Shown here piece by piece: positions 20,870-30,595 of a stretch of 64,000 nucleotides of DNA; within the stretch, counting starts at the first letter, position 1, and each line of letters starts with the position of its first letter. The notes below the pieces were generated by a model. That model had not been told where the DNA came from and ran no database searches. It was given only the letters and a program-made list of their open reading frames with translations. This DNA is from an uncultured Lachnospiraceae bacterium. GTDB taxonomy: Bacteria > Bacillota > Clostridia > Lachnospirales > Lachnospiraceae. Where the stretch lies: NCBI GenBank assembly GCA_947652735.1, contig CANTEG010000005.1, positions 62,001 to 126,000 on the forward strand, in the 5' to 3' direction. The position numbers and the translations under genes are program-made.

Positions 20870-21316
20870 TTGAAGGATAAACGACAAAGTGCAATTATCA
20901 AAATTATAAGTGAAAATAACATAGATACCCAGGAAATGCTTTTGAAACATTTGAATGACAGCGGATTTGACACGACACAGGCAACAGTGTCAAGGGATAT
21001 CAGGGAGTTAAACATAACAAAGCTTTCTTATGACGGAAACAAGCATAAATATGTTGTGGGTTCGGGAAACACGAACCGCTTTGATGTATCAGGTAAACAT
21101 ATAATTGAAAATTATATTTTATCAATAGACCATGCAGGGAATCTTATTGTAATCAAAACCACAGCAGGATATGCGATGGCGGTTGCGACAGTCATTGACA
21201 GTCTTAAGGAAGAGGATATTATGGGATGTATTGCAGGTGATGATACACTGTTTATAGCGATAAAGAAGCCTGAAAGGGCGGATGAAATAATTGGGAGTAT
21301 AAAAAAATGCTACTAA
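20870..21316 (+). CDS. argR: Arginine repressor ArgR/AhrC
   Basis: A 148-residue arginine-responsive regulator. The N-terminal winged helix carries the typical ATVSRDIRELNITKL motif and the C-terminal domain has the hexamer/arginine-binding AGDDTLFIAIK segment. It represses arginine biosynthesis; an argD-type gene lies at 57.3 kb. A TTG start follows AGGAGG, and the end overlaps recN by 10 nt. Confidence 0.94.
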   Translation: MKDKRQSAIIKIISENNIDTQEMLLKHLNDSGFDTTQATVSRDIRELNITKLSYDGNKHKYVVGSGNTNRFDVSGKHIIENYILSIDHAGNLIVIKTTAGYAMAVATVIDSLKEEDIMGCIAGDDTLFIAIKKPERADEIIGSIKKCY

Positions 21317-22995
21317 ATATGCACATAAAAAATATTGTTTTGATTGATGATATAGATATAAGCTTTGATGACAATTTAAACATTTTGACAGGAGAGACGG
21401 GAGCTGGTAAGTCAATTATAATCGGCTCACTTGGAATATGCCTTGGCGGTAAATTTCAAAAGGAGCTTCTCCGTGATGATACGATGGATGGAATTGTGGA
21501 GCTTACATTTTCCATTGACAGGACAGGGATAAGAAAACAGCTTGAAAAAATGGATGTTTATCCTGATGAGAATAACGAACTTCTTATTGCAAGGAGATTG
21601 AACAAAAACGGAAGAACAATAAACAGAATCAATGACAATACCGTAACAACTGCAAAGCTTAGGGAAGTTGCAGGGGTACTGATTGATTTACATGCACAGC
21701 ATGAGCAGCAGACTTTGTTAAAGCCGTCCATGCATATGGAAATTCTGGACAGATTCGGCGGTGAGGATATAGCGAAGATAAAAGCCTCTGTTAAGAATTT
21801 ATATGATACATACATAAAGCTTAATAAGGACATGGAAGAAATGTCCATAGATGAAAATGAAAAAAACAGACAGATGGATTTTCTGCAATATGAAATCAAG
21901 GAGATAAGTGCGGCAAAGCTGGTTCCTGGAGAGGATGAGGAGCTTGAGACAGCATATAAAAAGGCTGTTAATGCAAAGGAAATACTTTCCACTGCTTCGG
22001 AAATATACGATGCAACAGGGTATGGAAGCAAGGCATCTGTAGCGGACTTACTCAGTCATGCCTTAGGTCAGATGAAGCAGCTTTCGGCACTAGATACGGA
22101 TCTGGATTCTCTTTGCAGTAGTCTGATTGACATTGATTCCATGTTAAATGATTTTAACCGTGAACTTTCGGATTACATGCAGTCAATGGAATTTGATGAT
22201 GAACAGTTCGCATCAATAGAAAGCAGGCTGGATATCATTAATTCCTTAAAGGCAAAATACGGAAGAACAATTTCTGATATTTTAGCATCACTTGAAAAAT
22301 TTGAAACGGAATATGACAGTCTTGTATTATATGATGAACAAATGGAAAAGCTAAATAAAGAAATTAAAAAATTAGAAGACAGTCTCACATCTGAGTGTGA
22401 TAAACTTACAATTGCCCGGCAAAATACGGCAAAAAAGCTTTGTTCCATGATTAAGGAAGCTCTTATCGAGCTTAATTTTACATCTGTTGAGTTTGATATG
22501 AGATTTACAAAGCTGGATAAGTTTACCCAAAATGGAAATGATCAGGCGTATTTTATGATATCTACCAATGTGGGAGAAAAAATAAGACCGCTTTTTGATG
22601 TTGCATCAGGCGGTGAATTGTCAAGAGTTATGCTTGCACTCAAGTCATGTATAGCATATGAGGATGACACACCAACCCTTATATTTGATGAAATTGATGT
22701 GGGAATCAGCGGTAAAACCGCACAGAGCGTTGCAAAAAAACTCTCAATCATAGGCAGGCAGCATCAGGTAATCTGTATCACACATCTTCCACAGATAGCA
22801 TCTATGGCGGATTCGCATTTTATAATAGAAAAAAAGGTGGAAAATAATAAAACAACAACCAATATAAGGAAGCTGGATGAAACGTCAGAGATTGAAGAAA
22901 TATCAAGATTATTGGGCGGTGAGGAAGTTACCGAAGCAACACTTACAAATGCTAAGGAAATGAAGGATTTGGCAAATAAAACAAAAATATACTGA
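21307..22995 (+). CDS. recN: DNA repair protein RecN
   Basis: SMC-like ATPase for double-strand break repair, 562 residues. The N-terminal Walker A is GETGAGKS (near residue 30). Two long coiled-coil arms fill the middle (about 150-380). The C-terminal ABC signature FDVASGGELSRVMLALK and Walker B LIFDEIDVGISG complete the site. Followed by a good terminator. Confidence 0.96.
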   Translation: MLLNMHIKNIVLIDDIDISFDDNLNILTGETGAGKSIIIGSLGICLGGKFQKELLRDDTMDGIVELTFSIDRTGIRKQLEKMDVYPDENNELLIARRLNKNGRTINRINDNTVTTAKLREVAGVLIDLHAQHEQQTLLKPSMHMEILDRFGGEDIAKIKASVKNLYDTYIKLNKDMEEMSIDENEKNRQMDFLQYEIKEISAAKLVPGEDEELETAYKKAVNAKEILSTASEIYDATGYGSKASVADLLSHALGQMKQLSALDTDLDSLCSSLIDIDSMLNDFNRELSDYMQSMEFDDEQFASIESRLDIINSLKAKYGRTISDILASLEKFETEYDSLVLYDEQMEKLNKEIKKLEDSLTSECDKLTIARQNTAKKLCSMIKEALIELNFTSVEFDMRFTKLDKFTQNGNDQAYFMISTNVGEKIRPLFDVASGGELSRVMLALKSCIAYEDDTPTLIFDEIDVGISGKTAQSVAKKLSIIGRQHQVICITHLPQIASMADSHFIIEKKVENNKTTTNIRKLDETSEIEEISRLLGGEEVTEATLTNAKEMKDLANKTKIY

Positions 22996-23209: not shown

Positions 23210-24364
23210 ATGAGCGTTAAATATTATAGAAATATTTTATGTGCAATGCTGCTTTCAATATGCAGTTTAATATTTGTATCAGTATATAACGATGTAAGTT
23301 CGTTTTATGATAATACAACGGTAAGTGGAAAAGGAAGCATTTCTATCAATGAAGGGGAACCTGATATGAATCCTATCATTGCCGCTGAATCAACAGAGGG
23401 AGTCAGTGAGGAGAATACTGATGAAAAAGATAATGCCGTTCATATGGTTATGCCGTCGGGACAGCCGATTGGAATATATGTTAAAACAAAGGGCGTAATG
23501 GTAATTGGAACGGGAGAAATACAAACCCTTCAGGGTAATGATGTTTCTCCATGCCGTAACCTGATTGAGACTGGTGACTACATTATGGAAGTAAACGGTA
23601 CGGAAGTAAACGACAAGGAGGGACTGATTAATGCCATAGAGGCAAGTAAGGATAAGGAAATCATTATGAAGGTAAACAGAAAAGGTAATGAAATAAATGT
23701 TGCCGTAACACCCATTTTGTCGTCAAACAAAAAATACATGCTTGGTTTATGGGTAAAGGATGATATATCAGGAATAGGAACCTTAACCTATATAGATGAA
23801 AATGGTTTCGGAGCACTAGGACACAGCATAAATGATAATGATACAGGGGAGCTGTTTGATATTTCAGATGGAGCTATTTATCAGACGGAGCTTGTAAATA
23901 TAGTGAAATCTGATGGTGAGAGTCCGGGTCGGCTTGAGGGGATAATCAATTATTCGTCGTCTAATGTAATAGGACGTGTAAAAAACAATACGTTATACGG
24001 AATAAAGGGATATATGACAAAAAATGCATATGATTATCTTGCTTCAGGTGAATGGATGCCGATTGCGCATAAGAAGGATGCACATCTCGGAGAAGCCCTC
24101 CTTTTATCATCGGTATCAGGTAAGCCTGAATACTATGAAATTGAGATTACAGGTGTGGATATCAGTGACAGCAGCGGTAATAAGGGTTTGGAAATTACAA
24201 TTAAAGACTCACGGCTTTTGCAGCTTACAAGTGGAATCGTACAGGGTATGAGCGGTACGCCGATTATTCAGGATGGAAAGCTTTTAGGTGCGGTTACACA
24301 TGTATTTTTGAAGGATTCAGCCAAGGGGTATGGAACCTTTGTTGAGGATATGATGAAAAACTGA
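23210..24364 (+). CDS. spoIVB: SpoIVB peptidase (S55 family)
   Basis: Forespore-secreted serine protease, 384 residues, that signals pro-sigma-K processing. An N-terminal membrane/signal segment (about 8-26) is followed by a PDZ domain (about 85-170) and the S55 domain. The catalytic His is expected in GALGHSI (near residue 206) and the nucleophile in GMSGTPII, where most family members read GMSGSPI; the Ser of GMSG is kept. AGGAGG precedes the ATG. In most spore-formers spo0A follows directly; here three other genes intervene. Confidence 0.93.
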   Translation: MSVKYYRNILCAMLLSICSLIFVSVYNDVSSFYDNTTVSGKGSISINEGEPDMNPIIAAESTEGVSEENTDEKDNAVHMVMPSGQPIGIYVKTKGVMVIGTGEIQTLQGNDVSPCRNLIETGDYIMEVNGTEVNDKEGLINAIEASKDKEIIMKVNRKGNEINVAVTPILSSNKKYMLGLWVKDDISGIGTLTYIDENGFGALGHSINDNDTGELFDISDGAIYQTELVNIVKSDGESPGRLEGIINYSSSNVIGRVKNNTLYGIKGYMTKNAYDYLASGEWMPIAHKKDAHLGEALLLSSVSGKPEYYEIEITGVDISDSSGNKGLEITIKDSRLLQLTSGIVQGMSGTPIIQDGKLLGAVTHVFLKDSAKGYGTFVEDMMKN

Positions 24365-26203: not shown

Positions 26204-26253
26204 AGGGTAATATGTCGATAAAAAAATGACTGAAAATGTTGTCAAACGCTAGT

Positions 26254-26268
26254 GTCGCAACTTGCGAC
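26254..26268. promoter_or_regulatory. Perfect 15-bp palindrome upstream of the first Spo0A-like gene
   Basis: GTCGCAA-C-TTGCGAC, about 80 nt before the start codon. Each arm with its flank (TGTCGCA) is one base from the 0A box TGTCGAA, and TGTCGAT occurs at 26214-26220. Candidate operator. A possible promoter (TTGTTC, 17 nt, TATAAT at 26302-26307) lies just downstream. Confidence 0.4.
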
Positions 26269-26349
26269 CTCTTTGGTCTTGTTCCTCAAATATTGCAATT
26301 ATATAATGACAAGGAACAACAAAAAGATTATAGAAAGAGGGAAGATATT

Positions 26350-27138
26350 ATGAGGATAAAGGTTCTTGTCATTAAGCATGATGTTAGAAGTGCGAATGAA
26401 TTAAAAAGAATGCTTGAGGCCAAAAGTGAGTTTTGTGTATGCGGTTGTATGACAGATGGACAGGAGGGTATGAAAGCAATTACAAAAAATAATCCTGATG
26501 TTGTTATCATTGATTTACTTCTTCCGAACATGGATGGAATTGCAATTATGGATGAGTTAAATAAGGATGGTGACAAAGGACTGAAGTTTATTGTAAAAGC
26601 AAATGCGAATCAGATAAAATTTGTTGAAAGGGTATATAAAGGGCAGCTTAATAATGTATACATAAGTATTATAGATGAATCTGCCAATGATGTTGATATA
26701 TGCCAGGAGGTGATAAATGCAAGTAAGACGAAGCTTAAGGGTATCTATGTTTACGAGTCGTCAGATGAGGCATATGAAAGTGCTCTTGAGTTGAATGTAA
26801 CAGAAATAATACACGAGATAGGGGTTCCTGCCCATATTAAGGGATACCAATATTTAAGAAGCTCCATTATTATGGCAGTAAAGGATATGGATGTACTTAA
26901 TTCGATTACAAAGCAGCTTTATCCGTCAATTGCGAAGGAACATGGGACAACCTCCTCGAGAGTGGAACGGGCAATACGTCATGCGATAGAAGTTGCATGG
27001 GGACGAGGAAAAACAGATACAATTAATGAGCTGTTTGGATACACAATGAGTCAGGGAAAATTGAAGCCTACAAACTCCGAATTTATAGCACTGATTGCGG
27101 ATAAAATAAGACTGGACAATAAGATGAAAAGTGCCTAA
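26350..27138 (+). CDS. Spo0A-like regulator with degenerate receiver
   Basis: A 262-residue protein with the Spo0A layout: N-terminal receiver, linker and a full C-terminal Spo0A DNA-binding domain ([51 protein letters not shown]). The receiver keeps the Asp of DLLLPNMDG (Asp55) but the acidic pair ADD reads IKH, the conserved Thr is Ala84 and the conserved Lys is Ile107. It therefore probably cannot be phosphorylated normally. The ATG at 26350 follows AGAGGGA; a longer frame from 26236 crosses the palindrome. It likely arose by duplication of the downstream gene and may act as a constitutive or antagonistic partner. Confidence 0.8.
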
Positions 27139-27184
27139 GTCGAAGGCTGTCGAACTCTTGTGGTAAAATCCTTGGAATTCGACT
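27138..27184. promoter_or_regulatory. Cluster of 0A-box-like sites between the two Spo0A genes
   Basis: AGTCGAA (27138-27144, 6/7), perfect TGTCGAA (27148-27154), exactly 10 bp further on, and inverted TTCGACT (27178-27184, 6/7) touching the -35 element. Matches to the Spo0A consensus TGTCGAA; autoregulation is inferred. Confidence 0.55.
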
Positions 27185-27212
27185 TGACAATGCAAAAATG
27201 AAATTATATTAT
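27184..27212 (+). promoter_or_regulatory. Sigma-A promoter of the second Spo0A gene
   Basis: TTGACA (27184-27189), 17-nt spacer, TATTAT (27207-27212), 52 nt before the start codon. Confidence 0.8.
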
Positions 27213-27264
27213 CTCCATATGGTTATCTTGATTGGTATGGAGAAATAGCTAAAGGGGAGATTAT

Positions 27265-28056
27265 ATGACTGAACAAAAGGTTCGGGTTGTAATTGCAGAT
27301 GCAGGCTATGAAATCCTATCAAGGCAGTTACAAGTTCAAAGTGGTGAAGCAATCGATGTTGTAAAAACGACTGAAGATGGCGCAGAGGTTTATGATATTG
27401 TATCTAATTTCAAACCTGATGTGTTACTGATAGATGTATTTATAACAAATGTAGACGGCTTAGAAGTCGTTGAGCAAATTCGTGCTAATGAAGAACTTGC
27501 AGGAACAAGTATTATTTTTATAACCAACGTAGGCTCTCCAAGAATTATAAGCATGGCTTTTAATCTTGGTGCAGACTATTATATCATGAAACCATGTAAT
27601 CCTGATATTTTATGCAAGAGAATCATGCAGATTGCAGGTCTGGCAAAAGAAGCTGAGACCGATGATGCAGAGGATGAAATTAAGGGAGGACATGAGCTAA
27701 GTACAATAGAAAATGACGTTACGGAAATCATAAGAGAAATAGGCATACCAGCACATATAAAAGGATATCAGTATATACGTGAAGGTATAATAATGTCTAT
27801 AAATGACATGAACATGCTCAATTATATTACAAAGCTTCTGTATCCGAGCATTGCAAAGAAATATAAAACTACCTCAAGCAGCGTTGAAAGGGCAATCAGA
27901 CATGCCATAGAGGTAGCTTGGAGCAGAGGAAAGATTGAGGTTATAGAGGAAATGTTTGGCTATACAGTCAGTGCAGGAAAAGGAAAACCTACAAATTCCG
28001 AATTCATTGCACTTATCGCTGATAAGCTACGCATAGAATACAAGATGCACGCGTGA
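27265..28056 (+). CDS. spo0A: Sporulation master regulator Spo0A
   Basis: A 263-residue Spo0A. The receiver has the phosphorylation Asp (Asp57 in [12 protein letters not shown]), the conserved Thr87 and Lys109 (YYIMKPCN). In the acidic pocket only one of the two aspartates is kept (ADAG instead of ADDN), so magnesium binding may be weakened. The C-terminal domain closely follows Bacillus Spo0A, including [19 protein letters not shown] and [17 protein letters not shown]. It has its own strong promoter with 0A-like sites. GGGGAG precedes the ATG. This is the better candidate for the functional master regulator of the pair. Confidence 0.9.
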
Positions 28057-28073
28057 TGAAAGGAGATACGAAA

Positions 28074-28502
28074 GTGGCAACGCAAGGAACAAATGATGGA
28101 GGTTCCGGTATGAACAGGGCAAAGGATAAGTTTAACGGTTCAAGAAATGCCGGAACAAGAAATGCATTTGAGGCAAGGAATGGTGGATATTCTAACCGAA
28201 AACCGAAGCAGGGAAATTCAAAATACCAGCCGAGATATTCAGGTAAGGATGAGGATGACGATGATAACAACAGGAGGAGCAGACCGTCCAAGCCTAAAGA
28301 AAGCAAAACCGGCGTAACGCTGCCGGACAAAAATAAGACTATGCTTCGTCTTGAAAAGGAACAAAAGTCAATTAAAAAGAAGCAGAGTCGAAAAAAAGAA
28401 AGCAGCAGACCACAACCTAAGGTTAAGAGGGCGAATAATGTAAATTACACTCGTTCGTATGCAAATGGGGATTACGACGATTACGATGAATATTATGATT
28501 AA
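28074..28502 (+). CDS. Basic low-complexity hypothetical protein
   Basis: A 142-residue hydrophilic protein rich in Lys, Arg, Asn, Ser and Gly, with an acidic Tyr/Asp tail (DYDDYDEYYD). It is probably disordered and possibly nucleic-acid binding. No family recognised. A GTG start at 28074 lies 8 nt after AAAGGAG, 17 nt past the spo0A stop, so it is likely co-transcribed with spo0A. Confidence 0.55.
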   Translation: MATQGTNDGGSGMNRAKDKFNGSRNAGTRNAFEARNGGYSNRKPKQGNSKYQPRYSGKDEDDDDNNRRSRPSKPKESKTGVTLPDKNKTMLRLEKEQKSIKKKQSRKKESSRPQPKVKRANNVNYTRSYANGDYDDYDEYYD

Positions 28503-28966: not shown

Positions 28967-29020
28967 TAGCCGTGCGATGGTCTGTTGCAAAAACTGCCGG
29001 TACTACTGCGGAGGTACAAA

Positions 29021-30595
29021 ATGGACGAGAATTATCTTGACAATCTATTAAATGATTTATCAAATGAAGAAGAACAACAAAATATAGATATAAACATATC
29101 AGAGGACTCAGGGGTAAATTTAGATTTATCGGATCTTGGGGATATCTCCCTTGATGAGCTTGATGAGCTTGATGATATAGATTTATCTTCCCTTGAGCTT
29201 GATGACATAGATTTTGATGATGTTGATGTCACAAAGCTTGATGGTGGTTCCATACCTGCTTCGGGAAACTCATTTAATGAACCGGGGGATTTTGACATGA
29301 GTGCCCTTCTTGAGGATGAGGAGGATATGCAGGATATGGCCTCACAAAGTATTGAGGACATTGCTGATATGATGCAGGCGGTTGAAGAATATCCAAGTGC
29401 GGATGCTTTAGGTGGGTATGCTGATACAGGTGTGCCTGATGGCTTTGCAGGTGCCGATGGCGGTGTTTTTGAGGAAGCGGAAACGGCACAGCAGTTTGAT
29501 GAGGACTTTATGGGTATGGTTATGGATGAGGAGAAAAGTGCAGAGGCTGTTTCTTCACAGAGTGCACCTGCTGGTGCTGAAGATACTACACCGAAAACTG
29601 CCGAGGAAATAGACCAGATGGATTTGGATGACTTATTTTCTGCTCTTGGAATAGACGATGACAAGTCAGATGATGAGGAAGATTATACGGCAAATCAGGG
29701 TAAGCTTGATGACTTGATAAATTCATCTTCAGAGTTTGATTTTGAGGATGGGGATATTTCTGATATAGAAGAAATAGAAGAAAAAGATGCAGGTGGTAAG
29801 AAGTCTAAGAAGCGGGGAAAAAAGGAAAAAGGCGAGAAGAAACCGTTATCCGTCATTTTGTTTGGTGAACCTGATGAGGACGAAGAAGAAGAAAACAAGG
29901 CACTTGAGGCAAAGAAAGCAGAAGAAAAGGCACAGAAACAGGCATTAAAGGAAGAAAAGAAAGCACAAAAGAAGGAAAAGCAAGCATTAAAGCAAAGAGC
30001 CAATTCCGAGAAAAAGAAAGCAAAGGAACAGGAAAAACAGGAAAAGCTTGCAGAGATAAGTGCAGAGCTGGAATTAGAGAAAGACGAAAAGAAAGTATCA
30101 GTGGCAGTTGTTGCGATTGTATTTTCTTTATTTGCTGTGCTTTGCGTACTTGTGGTGTTTGGTTCAAAGATATTTAGCTATTCACAGGCTGTCAAGAAAG
30201 CAGAAGATTATTTTGAAAGACAGAGATACAGACTTGCATATGATGAGGTGTCTGGTGTAGAGATTAAGGAAGATGATAAGACACTGCGCGACAAGATATA
30301 TACGATTATGTATGTGGAGCGACTTTACGAGTCTTACGAAAACAACATTTCCATAGGACATCCTGACAGAGCTTTGGATGCACTCATACGTGGTTTGGAG
30401 AAGTATGATTTACATTATCAGGAAGCGGTATCACTTAATATTGTTGCTGACATTGATTCCTGTAAGAGCAAGATAGTAGCTGCACTGAATGAGACCTATG
30501 GACTGTCAGAGGAGGAAGCATATGAGATTATTTCTCTTGATGGGCAGGCATATTCCTCTAAGTTAATGGAGATTTCCTCAAAGGTTAAACAATAG
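29021..30595 (+). CDS. Large acidic single-pass membrane protein of unknown function
   Basis: A 524-residue protein not assigned to a family. The first ~270 residues are extremely acidic, with DELDEL/DDIDLSSLELDDID repeats. A strongly charged Lys/Glu coiled-coil-like stretch (about 270-355) follows, then one membrane helix (about 358-382), and a ~140-residue helical domain outside. The orientation suggests a large cytoplasmic acidic tail. The ATG at 29021 follows GGAGG. It lies behind a sigma-A type promoter with a perfect 0A box 73 nt upstream of that promoter's -35, so it may belong to the Spo0A regulon. Confidence 0.6.
   Translation: MDENYLDNLLNDLSNEEEQQNIDINISEDSGVNLDLSDLGDISLDELDELDDIDLSSLELDDIDFDDVDVTKLDGGSIPASGNSFNEPGDFDMSALLEDEEDMQDMASQSIEDIADMMQAVEEYPSADALGGYADTGVPDGFAGADGGVFEEAETAQQFDEDFMGMVMDEEKSAEAVSSQSAPAGAEDTTPKTAEEIDQMDLDDLFSALGIDDDKSDDEEDYTANQGKLDDLINSSSEFDFEDGDISDIEEIEEKDAGGKKSKKRGKKEKGEKKPLSVILFGEPDEDEEEENKALEAKKAEEKAQKQALKEEKKAQKKEKQALKQRANSEKKKAKEQEKQEKLAEISAELELEKDEKKVSVAVVAIVFSLFAVLCVLVVFGSKIFSYSQAVKKAEDYFERQRYRLAYDEVSGVEIKEDDKTLRDKIYTIMYVERLYESYENNISIGHPDRALDALIRGLEKYDLHYQEAVSLNIVADIDSCKSKIVAALNETYGLSEEEAYEIISLDGQAYSSKLMEISSKVKQ

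Follow-up and report, generated by a model that had tools for sequence, protein, structure and literature searches.

Tandem Spo0A paralogues with incomplete receiver pockets at the recN-spoIVB-spo0A locus of Lachnospiraceae

Entry into endospore formation is usually regarded as gated by phosphorylation of Spo0A. The locus described here raises the question of what this gate might look like in a bacterium which carries two Spo0A copies side by side, neither of them with a complete phosphorylation pocket. It lies in a stretch of 64,000 nucleotides (hereafter the window) from the genome of an uncultured Lachnospiraceae bacterium (GCA_947652735.1, contig CANTEG010000005.1). A preliminary description of the window had reported two full-length Spo0A-type genes lying head to tail with intact DNA-binding domains, and both statements hold. 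The whole-protein scores against the Spo0A equivalog model TIGR02875 amount to 245.2 bits for the first gene product (A) and 278.7 bits for the second (B), both above the curated cut-off of 200 bits, and each protein contains a receiver match (PF00072; A 50.2 bits, B 64.4 bits) as well as a Spo0A_C match (PF08769; A 149.8 bits, B 151.6 bits at a cut-off of 25). The genes and domains are located as follows:

21307-22995, recN, named by eye and position, upstream of spoIVB
23210..24364, + strand, spoIVB (Peptidase_S55), upstream of gene A; together with recN it marks the usual spo0A locus
26350..27138, + strand, gene A, first Spo0A paralogue, 262 aa, degenerate receiver and intact DNA-binding domain
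26362..26640, + strand, receiver of A, PF00072 match, residues 5-97, with Lys9-His10, Asp55 and Ala84
26797..27108, + strand, DNA-binding domain Spo0A_C of A, residues 150-253, recognition helix SRVERAIRH, the same in B. subtilis
27265..28056, + strand, gene B, second Spo0A paralogue, 263 aa, Ala13 replacing the second acidic Asp
27319..27624, + strand, receiver of B, PF00072 match, residues 19-120, with Asp57, Thr87 and Lys109; Asp12-Ala13 lie just N-terminal of the match
27718..28029, + strand, DNA-binding domain Spo0A_C of B, residues 152-255, recognition helix SSVERAIRH

The gene pair and its receiver pockets

The pair lies downstream of recN and spoIVB and hence at the usual spo0A locus; a phosphomethylpyrimidine/pyridoxal-kinase-type gene and shikimate kinase are upstream as well. 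Among 22 named loci used for comparison, the available upstream flank shows recN and spoIVB in 15, spoIVB alone in one (L110) and neither in six. The ATG at 26350, which is preceded by an RBS-like stretch, is taken as the start of gene A; the ORF listing also offers a longer form starting at 26236, and the starts in relatives favour 26350. The ATG of gene B likewise follows an RBS-like stretch. Within the genome of 2.77 Mb, rated 100% complete, A and B are the sole two Spo0A_C matches, and having a PF00072 match each they fall outside the receiver-less class of Spo0A homologues known from phages. Judged by descent and score, A and B are Spo0A proteins, for which we withhold the label “phospho-switched Spo0A”. 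Two genes without Pfam match (28053-28502 and 28985-30595) lie downstream of B. Relatives of the former are present at 15 and relatives of the latter at 20 of the 22 named genus loci, where both precede hisH-hisF as far as the sequence reaches.

In the alignment, the pocket positions (the two residues of the DD pair, the phospho-Asp, the Thr and the Lys) read K-H-D-A-not K in A and D-A-D-T-K in B. In A, the DD pair is replaced by Lys9-His10 and the Thr by Ala84, while the Lys is absent and Asp55 is retained; the placement of the Lys column may shift by one residue, and neither placement has a Lys. The earlier claim that, Asp55 apart, the phosphorylation residues are gone from the first receiver is thereby borne out, as is the claim that the second copy retains Asp57, Thr87 and Lys109 (and Asp12) with one acidic Asp replaced, namely by Ala13. 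These states are largely fixed in the 23 rows comprising the 22 named loci and the window. At the first DD position A has Lys in 20, Arg in two and Asn in one, at the second His in all 23; the phospho-Asp is invariant, the Thr position is occupied by Ala (18), Gly (4) or Cys (1), and a Lys occurs at the Lys position in none. B has Asp at the first DD position in 22 rows (Ser in one), whereas the second is Ser (9), Ala (7), Gly (3), Ile (2), Leu (1) or Lys (1) and acidic in none; Asp and Lys are retained in all 23 and Thr/Ser in 22, with Ala at this position in one. This second residue of the DD pair binds the metal directly (PMC12632262, section 7, seen in excerpt), and it is also missing in all nine B genes read from other genera. 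In addition, the B rows of the genus have lost the Pro at D+4 and no longer carry Ala/Gly at T+1, and both kinds of change are tied to pseudo-receivers in the excerpt of PMC12632262.

A receiver which lacks any of DD, D, T/S or K is a pseudo-receiver by the definition given in the excerpt of PMC12548384, and by this definition both A and B are pseudo-receivers. Since A is devoid of DD, T and K and B of the second D, neither copy has a complete DD-D-T/S-K pocket, and the window genome contains no remaining Spo0A copy with one. Of 28 genus genomes in which A or B is present, 27 likewise lack an intact receiver as far as the drafts go. One genome of the genus, G023, possesses a third, non-adjacent full-length Spo0A (L244, G023:C148) with a pocket, DD-D-S-K, that is intact by eye and with a diverged DNA-binding domain; its contig may be a contaminant.

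The recognition helices had been described as nearly the same. Near-identity is indeed found, full identity is not: A keeps the Arg in all 23 rows, whereas B reads SSVERAIRH in all 23 genus rows and has the Ser at the same place in nine of nine B genes from other genera. In the IIHEIG stretch A has His and B has Arg (IHE versus IRE) in 18 of 18 genus rows each, five near-copies being omitted from this comparison. Within residues 219-238 of A (11 rows), which we take to be the sigma-A contact region, R219, G220, D223-I225 and F229 are invariant and 232-238 variable. For a role of Spo0A Arg211 in DNA contact no source was found in the open-licence literature. B as a normal Spo0A, and hence the second copy as the normal partner of an aberrant first one, is ruled out by its non-acidic metal-ligand position together with the Arg to Ser exchange in its helix.

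Distribution, descent and conservation

The adjacency search which the preliminary description had proposed places the pair, as two Spo0A_C matches about 0.8-1.1 kb apart on one contig, in 27 of 37 genus genomes, a frequency beyond chance; the receiver alignment, likewise proposed there, gave the pocket states described above. At least one Spo0A_C match is present in 29 of the 37; in G033 this is a solitary B at a contig end, in G016 just a short 153-aa ORF. The domain match is free of stops in 27 of 27 pairs, the A gene of G032 being cut by a contig end, and the first gene is thus neither rare nor frameshifted in relatives, as the earlier description had considered it might be. When named genome contigs were searched with the receiver of A, 53 loci were obtained, of which the best 22 (L092-L113) are A-type. 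All are uncultured MAGs, labelled Lachnospiraceae (18), Clostridium sp. (2), Bacteroides sp. (1) and Eubacteriales bacterium (1), several of them from ruminant gut according to the record titles. The genus genomes (G handles) and the named loci (L handles) overlap, so that their counts are not additive.

Beyond the genus, we used a DNA pattern for IIR[ED]xGIPA with zero mismatches as a signature of B, which makes the following counts lower bounds. The signature occurs in 10 of 397 family genomes, each from another genus (10 of 334 genera), and in none of 375 class-level genomes outside the family; across the whole class-level sample it occurs in one of 391, the window's own genome, 16 of the 391 belonging to the same family. 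A first gene adjoins B in nine of the ten family genomes. In the tenth, G275, the 4.3 kb read before B contain no Spo0A-like gene; this genome has one other Spo0A_C match. The pockets of first and second copy, in the order DD1, DD2, D, T, K, read:

G354, first DDDTK, second DNDSK (canonical first copy)
G278, first DDDSK, second DSDTK (canonical first copy)
G294, first DDDSK, second GNDSQ (canonical first copy)
G198, first DDDTK, second DSDGK (canonical first copy)
G187, first DDDCK, second VSDSK
G142, first NHDMQ, second DQDTK
G076, first KHDTC, second DNDTK
G106, first KHDAN, second DNDTK

A canonical first-copy pocket thus persists in four other genera. The A-receiver profile matches 142 of the 397 family genomes at E up to 1e-12 and fails to single out A, because canonical receivers match it too; beyond the window genome, just its two best matches (G106 and G076) are A-type on pocket reading. 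The statement that most spore-formers have one spo0A needs correction for this family, in which 266 of 397 genomes have at least one Spo0A-domain match and more than one per genome is common.

In a tree of 68 rows calculated with the pocket columns excluded, 25 first genes form one clade (support 100/96) and 25 second genes another (100/99). A tree of the DNA-binding domain alone (78 rows), a check suggested at the outset, likewise separates first copies (99/91) from second copies (100/99). Five near-identical genus pairs, the G198 pair and the G275 gene were left out of both trees, and the first tree was also calculated without the short Spo0A rows described below. A recent duplication within the genus is ruled out by both trees. 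Trees, locus and gene order show that spo0A was duplicated once in tandem, long ago, at the recN-spoIVB-spo0A locus, and that A and B are the products. G142 groups with G106, G076 and the genus (100/93), and the canonical or near-canonical first genes branch outside this clade, from which it follows by parsimony that B changed first (metal ligand and helix) and that the pocket of A was lost later, once. Several B rows and the L155 first gene have long branches, which makes the branch order within the clades less sure. The genera with a canonical first and an altered second copy would represent living intermediates from which the order of loss can be read.

Between the window and L092, dN/dS values (given as dN/dS pairs) amount to 0.024/0.568 for the receiver and 0/0.523 for the DNA-binding domain of A, and to 0.003/0.409 and 0.004/0.711 for those of B. 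Across 17 receivers of A, conservation is higher at the pocket face than elsewhere (0.779 versus 0.652; p 0.0022 by permutation), and the residues His, Asp, LLLPN, DG, Asn and Gln do not vary. The corresponding values for 17 canonical Spo0A rows are 0.827 and 0.673, while the pocket face of B is not special (0.770 versus 0.722, 17 rows, p 0.16). In B it is beta5 (0.99) and alpha4 (0.88) which exceed canonical Spo0A (0.82 and 0.71; 17 rows each), and a 17-row alignment of B shows no variation at Tyr106 and Lys109. The element borders were drawn after the general topology of receivers, and the rows share ancestry, so that these p-values are a guide at most. That A is a decaying relic of the duplication might be supposed from its receiver evolving faster than that of B (dN 0.207 versus 0.080, window versus L094). 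Yet the absence of stops, the low dN/dS and a pocket face conserved above the rest of the receiver rule out decay, and we consider a relic scarcely conceivable.

Upstream sequences and the link to sporulation

The following elements were found in front of the two genes:

26239..26266, + strand, conserved 28-bp element TTGTC-N6-TA-N-TGTC-NN-AACTTGCG, upstream of A
26279..26307, + strand, promoter-like TTGTTC-17-TATAAT before A, recognised by eye, outside the promoter-scan list
27148..27154, + strand, intergenic 0A-box core TGTCGAA without mismatch, 110 bp ahead of the start of B
27184..27212, + strand, promoter-like TTGACA-17-TATTAT before B, 11 of 12 positions matching

Allowing up to two mismatches, a single match to the 28-bp element is present in each of 22 genus genomes (of 37), always at the A locus; these are 22 of 27 pair-bearing genomes and none of ten without the pair, a reversed control pattern giving one match (G007). 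Among the matches listed, the 37 genomes show no further copies elsewhere. AACTTGCG is invariant in 15 rows aligned (of 23), and downstream of the element the TATAAT of the -10 region is conserved in 15 aligned rows (of 23). The right half of the element (up to two mismatches) matches three times in the window, once exactly, versus 3.8 times by chance. The promoter scan returned 10 promoter-like sites versus 11.5 in shuffled sequences, a count which by itself proves nothing. The TTGAC box before B is seen in 13 of 16 aligned rows (of 23), missing in L103, L109 and L113. The RNA fold of the A-B intergenic region is barely better than that of shuffled sequences (z -1.96, 7 of 200 as good).

The core 0A box is the target of Spo0A, whose free DNA-binding domain can bind targets unphosphorylated (PMC3485338, seen in excerpt). 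Of the 23 rows, 15 have TGTCGAA in the A-B interval and eight do not. This corresponds to 15 sites in 2,861 bp of intergenic sequence versus 58 in 325,266 bp overall (22 loci plus window), where about 0.5 would be expected, the rows being related. In the 250 bp preceding A, the 23 rows together (5,750 bp) contain seven sites, to which the window contributes none. TGTCGAA occurs no more than 300 bp upstream of spoIIAA at one of 30 genus loci, and aligning the upstream sequences of 20 such loci revealed nothing clear.

SpoIVA is encoded in 31 of the 37 genus genomes. A/B and SpoIVA are both present in 27, A/B alone in one (G032), SpoIVA alone in four and neither in five (Fisher p 0.0016, uncorrected for relatedness), the pair being conserved and tracking sporulation genes. 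The four genomes with SpoIVA in which A/B were not found (G001, G016, G017 and G034) are drafts of 71-91% completeness. Of the five with neither (G015, G025, G028, G029 and G035), two reach 99-100%. Strong SpoIIAA-type matches are missing in these same five and also in G002 (no match at all) and G034; the genus matches to TIGR02886 all lie under its curated cut-off.

Seventeen family genomes chosen among the matches have a short ORF (179-223 aa from stop to stop) as their best Spo0A_C gene, and these genomes have no other Spo0A_C ORF of at least 240 aa and above 100 bits, save one in G039. Nine were read in sequence (L035, L047, L050, L051, L054, L055, L061, L159 and L160): eight retain of the receiver just its start (beta1-alpha1-beta2), followed by an intact DNA-binding domain, while the short Spo0A of G308 has a beta5-like piece in addition and falls into a separate group; the remaining eight of the 17 were judged by ORF length. 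In G416, the short gene follows recN, spoIVB and another ORF. SpoIVA is present in all 17. A best Spo0A with a truncated receiver in other SpoIVA-bearing Lachnospiraceae points the same way as the A/B pair.

Readings of the pair and known counterparts

The fixed alterations in both copies suggest that sporulation is switched on by an unusual two-protein route. We give about even weight to a divided Spo0A in which a phosphorylation-free A would act together with a non-canonical B, by analogy with BldM-WhiI in Streptomyces. A and B would jointly replace the single Spo0A. A would bind 0A boxes unphosphorylated, its activity being set by the amount made and by its partner, and B would be this partner, forming homo- and heterodimers on paired boxes. 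By way of the 0A box and the strong sigma-A-type promoter before B, A (or A together with B) could switch on B, and entry into sporulation would wait for enough of both proteins, as with BldM-WhiI. A is taken to bind without phosphorylation because it keeps a DNA-binding domain of the 0A-box type and a re-fixed pocket which, apart from the Asp, is devoid of phosphorylation residues. B is taken as the partner because it keeps Asp, Thr/Ser and Lys and a highly conserved, presumed alpha4-beta5 face, while lacking the metal ligand and having a changed helix. Several findings weigh against the divided Spo0A: the eight rows of 23 without a perfect intergenic 0A box, the occurrence of canonical boxes at just one of 30 spoIIAA loci of the genus, so that no downstream sporulation target with such boxes emerged, the intact-looking third Spo0A of G023 unless its contig is a contaminant, the four SpoIVA-bearing drafts in which A/B were not found, and G032 with A/B and no SpoIVA.

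Whether constitutive binder, competitor or heterodimer partner, the roles offered at the outset for the first protein, sequence cannot tell apart, and B may or may not still take phosphate. If it does, B could be the signal receiver, accepting phosphate on Asp57 despite a weakened metal site, and A a phosphate-blind co-regulator in an asymmetric switch. The retention in B of the first acidic residue, Asp, Thr/Ser and Lys, the invariance of Tyr106 and Lys109 and the conservation of beta5 and alpha4 above canonical Spo0A speak for this reading, which remains a real though lesser possibility in view of the consistently non-acidic metal-binding position, the lost Pro at D+4 and the changed T+1, the latter two being linked to pseudo-receivers in the excerpt of PMC12632262. 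A somewhat doubtful alternative has the phosphorylation switch dismantled in both copies, the pocket of A sensing a non-phosphate signal, perhaps a metal or small ligand, and the A:B complex deciding on sporulation entry; the re-fixed site of A consists of Lys/Arg-His-Asp, Asp-Leu-Leu-Leu-Pro-Asn-x-Asp-Gly, Asn and Gln.

It is improbable that A and B serve separate regulons by subfunctionalisation and never meet, one alone governing sporulation. Their differing fixed residues (Arg versus Ser in the helix, IHE versus IRE) and a promoter-like site for each would fit such a division, but A and B are absent together in the five genomes which also lack SpoIVA, and they adjoin each other in every one of the 27 genomes with both. 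Even less probable, in our judgement, is A as a brake, that is, a constitutive binder which occupies 0A boxes or poisons B through mixed dimers until displaced by rising B. The helix Arg kept in A throughout would allow competition for the same boxes; the descent of A from a normal Spo0A, seen in the canonical first copies of four other genera, and the partial retention of the presumed sigma-A contact region argue the other way, although a brake stays compatible with both.

BldM and WhiI are response regulators of the NarL type. Like A and B, they form a couple of atypical developmental regulators with sporulation as output, and WhiI lacks the Lys and one residue of the DD pair; their heterodimer is proven (PMC4125116, seen in excerpt), whereas one of A and B is a proposal. 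The system does not concern endospores. Its genes are not co-transcribed (PMC12548384, excerpt). According to the same excerpt, CmrR-CmrT of C. difficile also combines two response regulators, one a likely pseudo-receiver, which are encoded in one operon and form homo- and heterodimers in pull-downs; it differs in belonging to the OmpR family, in having a kinase gene in the operon, in an origin by duplication being judged unlikely and in the typical receiver of CmrR. With the single Spo0A of B. subtilis and C. difficile, the pair shares the two-domain family, the recN-spoIVB-spo0A locus, Spo0A_C and a 0A box near the gene, but here two adjacent copies both lack the complete DD-D-T-K pocket and the B helix has Ser for Arg. 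C. thermocellum, too, has two Spo0A in one genome, the second being Cthe_3087 / Clo1313_0637 (PMC3804516 and PMC4890492, excerpts); from the distant locus numbers its genes are not adjacent. A tandem or pseudo-receiver Spo0A pair was not found among the open-licence matches listed (titles and beginnings of abstracts), is not described in the excerpts of PMC3416734, PMC8340488, PMC6136694 and PMC3533761, and no paper on the spo0A receiver domain in Lachnospiraceae was found in this literature.

A and B mark a lineage linked to sporulation whose two Spo0A copies both have incomplete pockets. If the two-protein route is true, phosphate control of sporulation is dispensable and kinase-based models fail for part of the gut microbiota; the pair would also offer a natural model for the study of pseudo-receiver function, a mystery according to the abstract of PMC12632262.

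Receiver-less phage homologues (PMC10294663, excerpt) resemble the pair in that the Spo0A DNA-binding domain is freed from phosphate control; they have no receiver, whereas A and B are full-length and located at the spo0A locus. Six of the 37 genus genomes (G016, G005 and G014, corresponding to L030, L247 and L248, as well as G006, G008 and G011) contain a third Spo0A_C gene, which is devoid of a receiver (ORFs of 128-154 aa). In two larger regions it is divergent to a regulator which by eye looks XRE-type and has similar neighbours in both, and on account of these surroundings it appears chromosomal rather than phage-borne.
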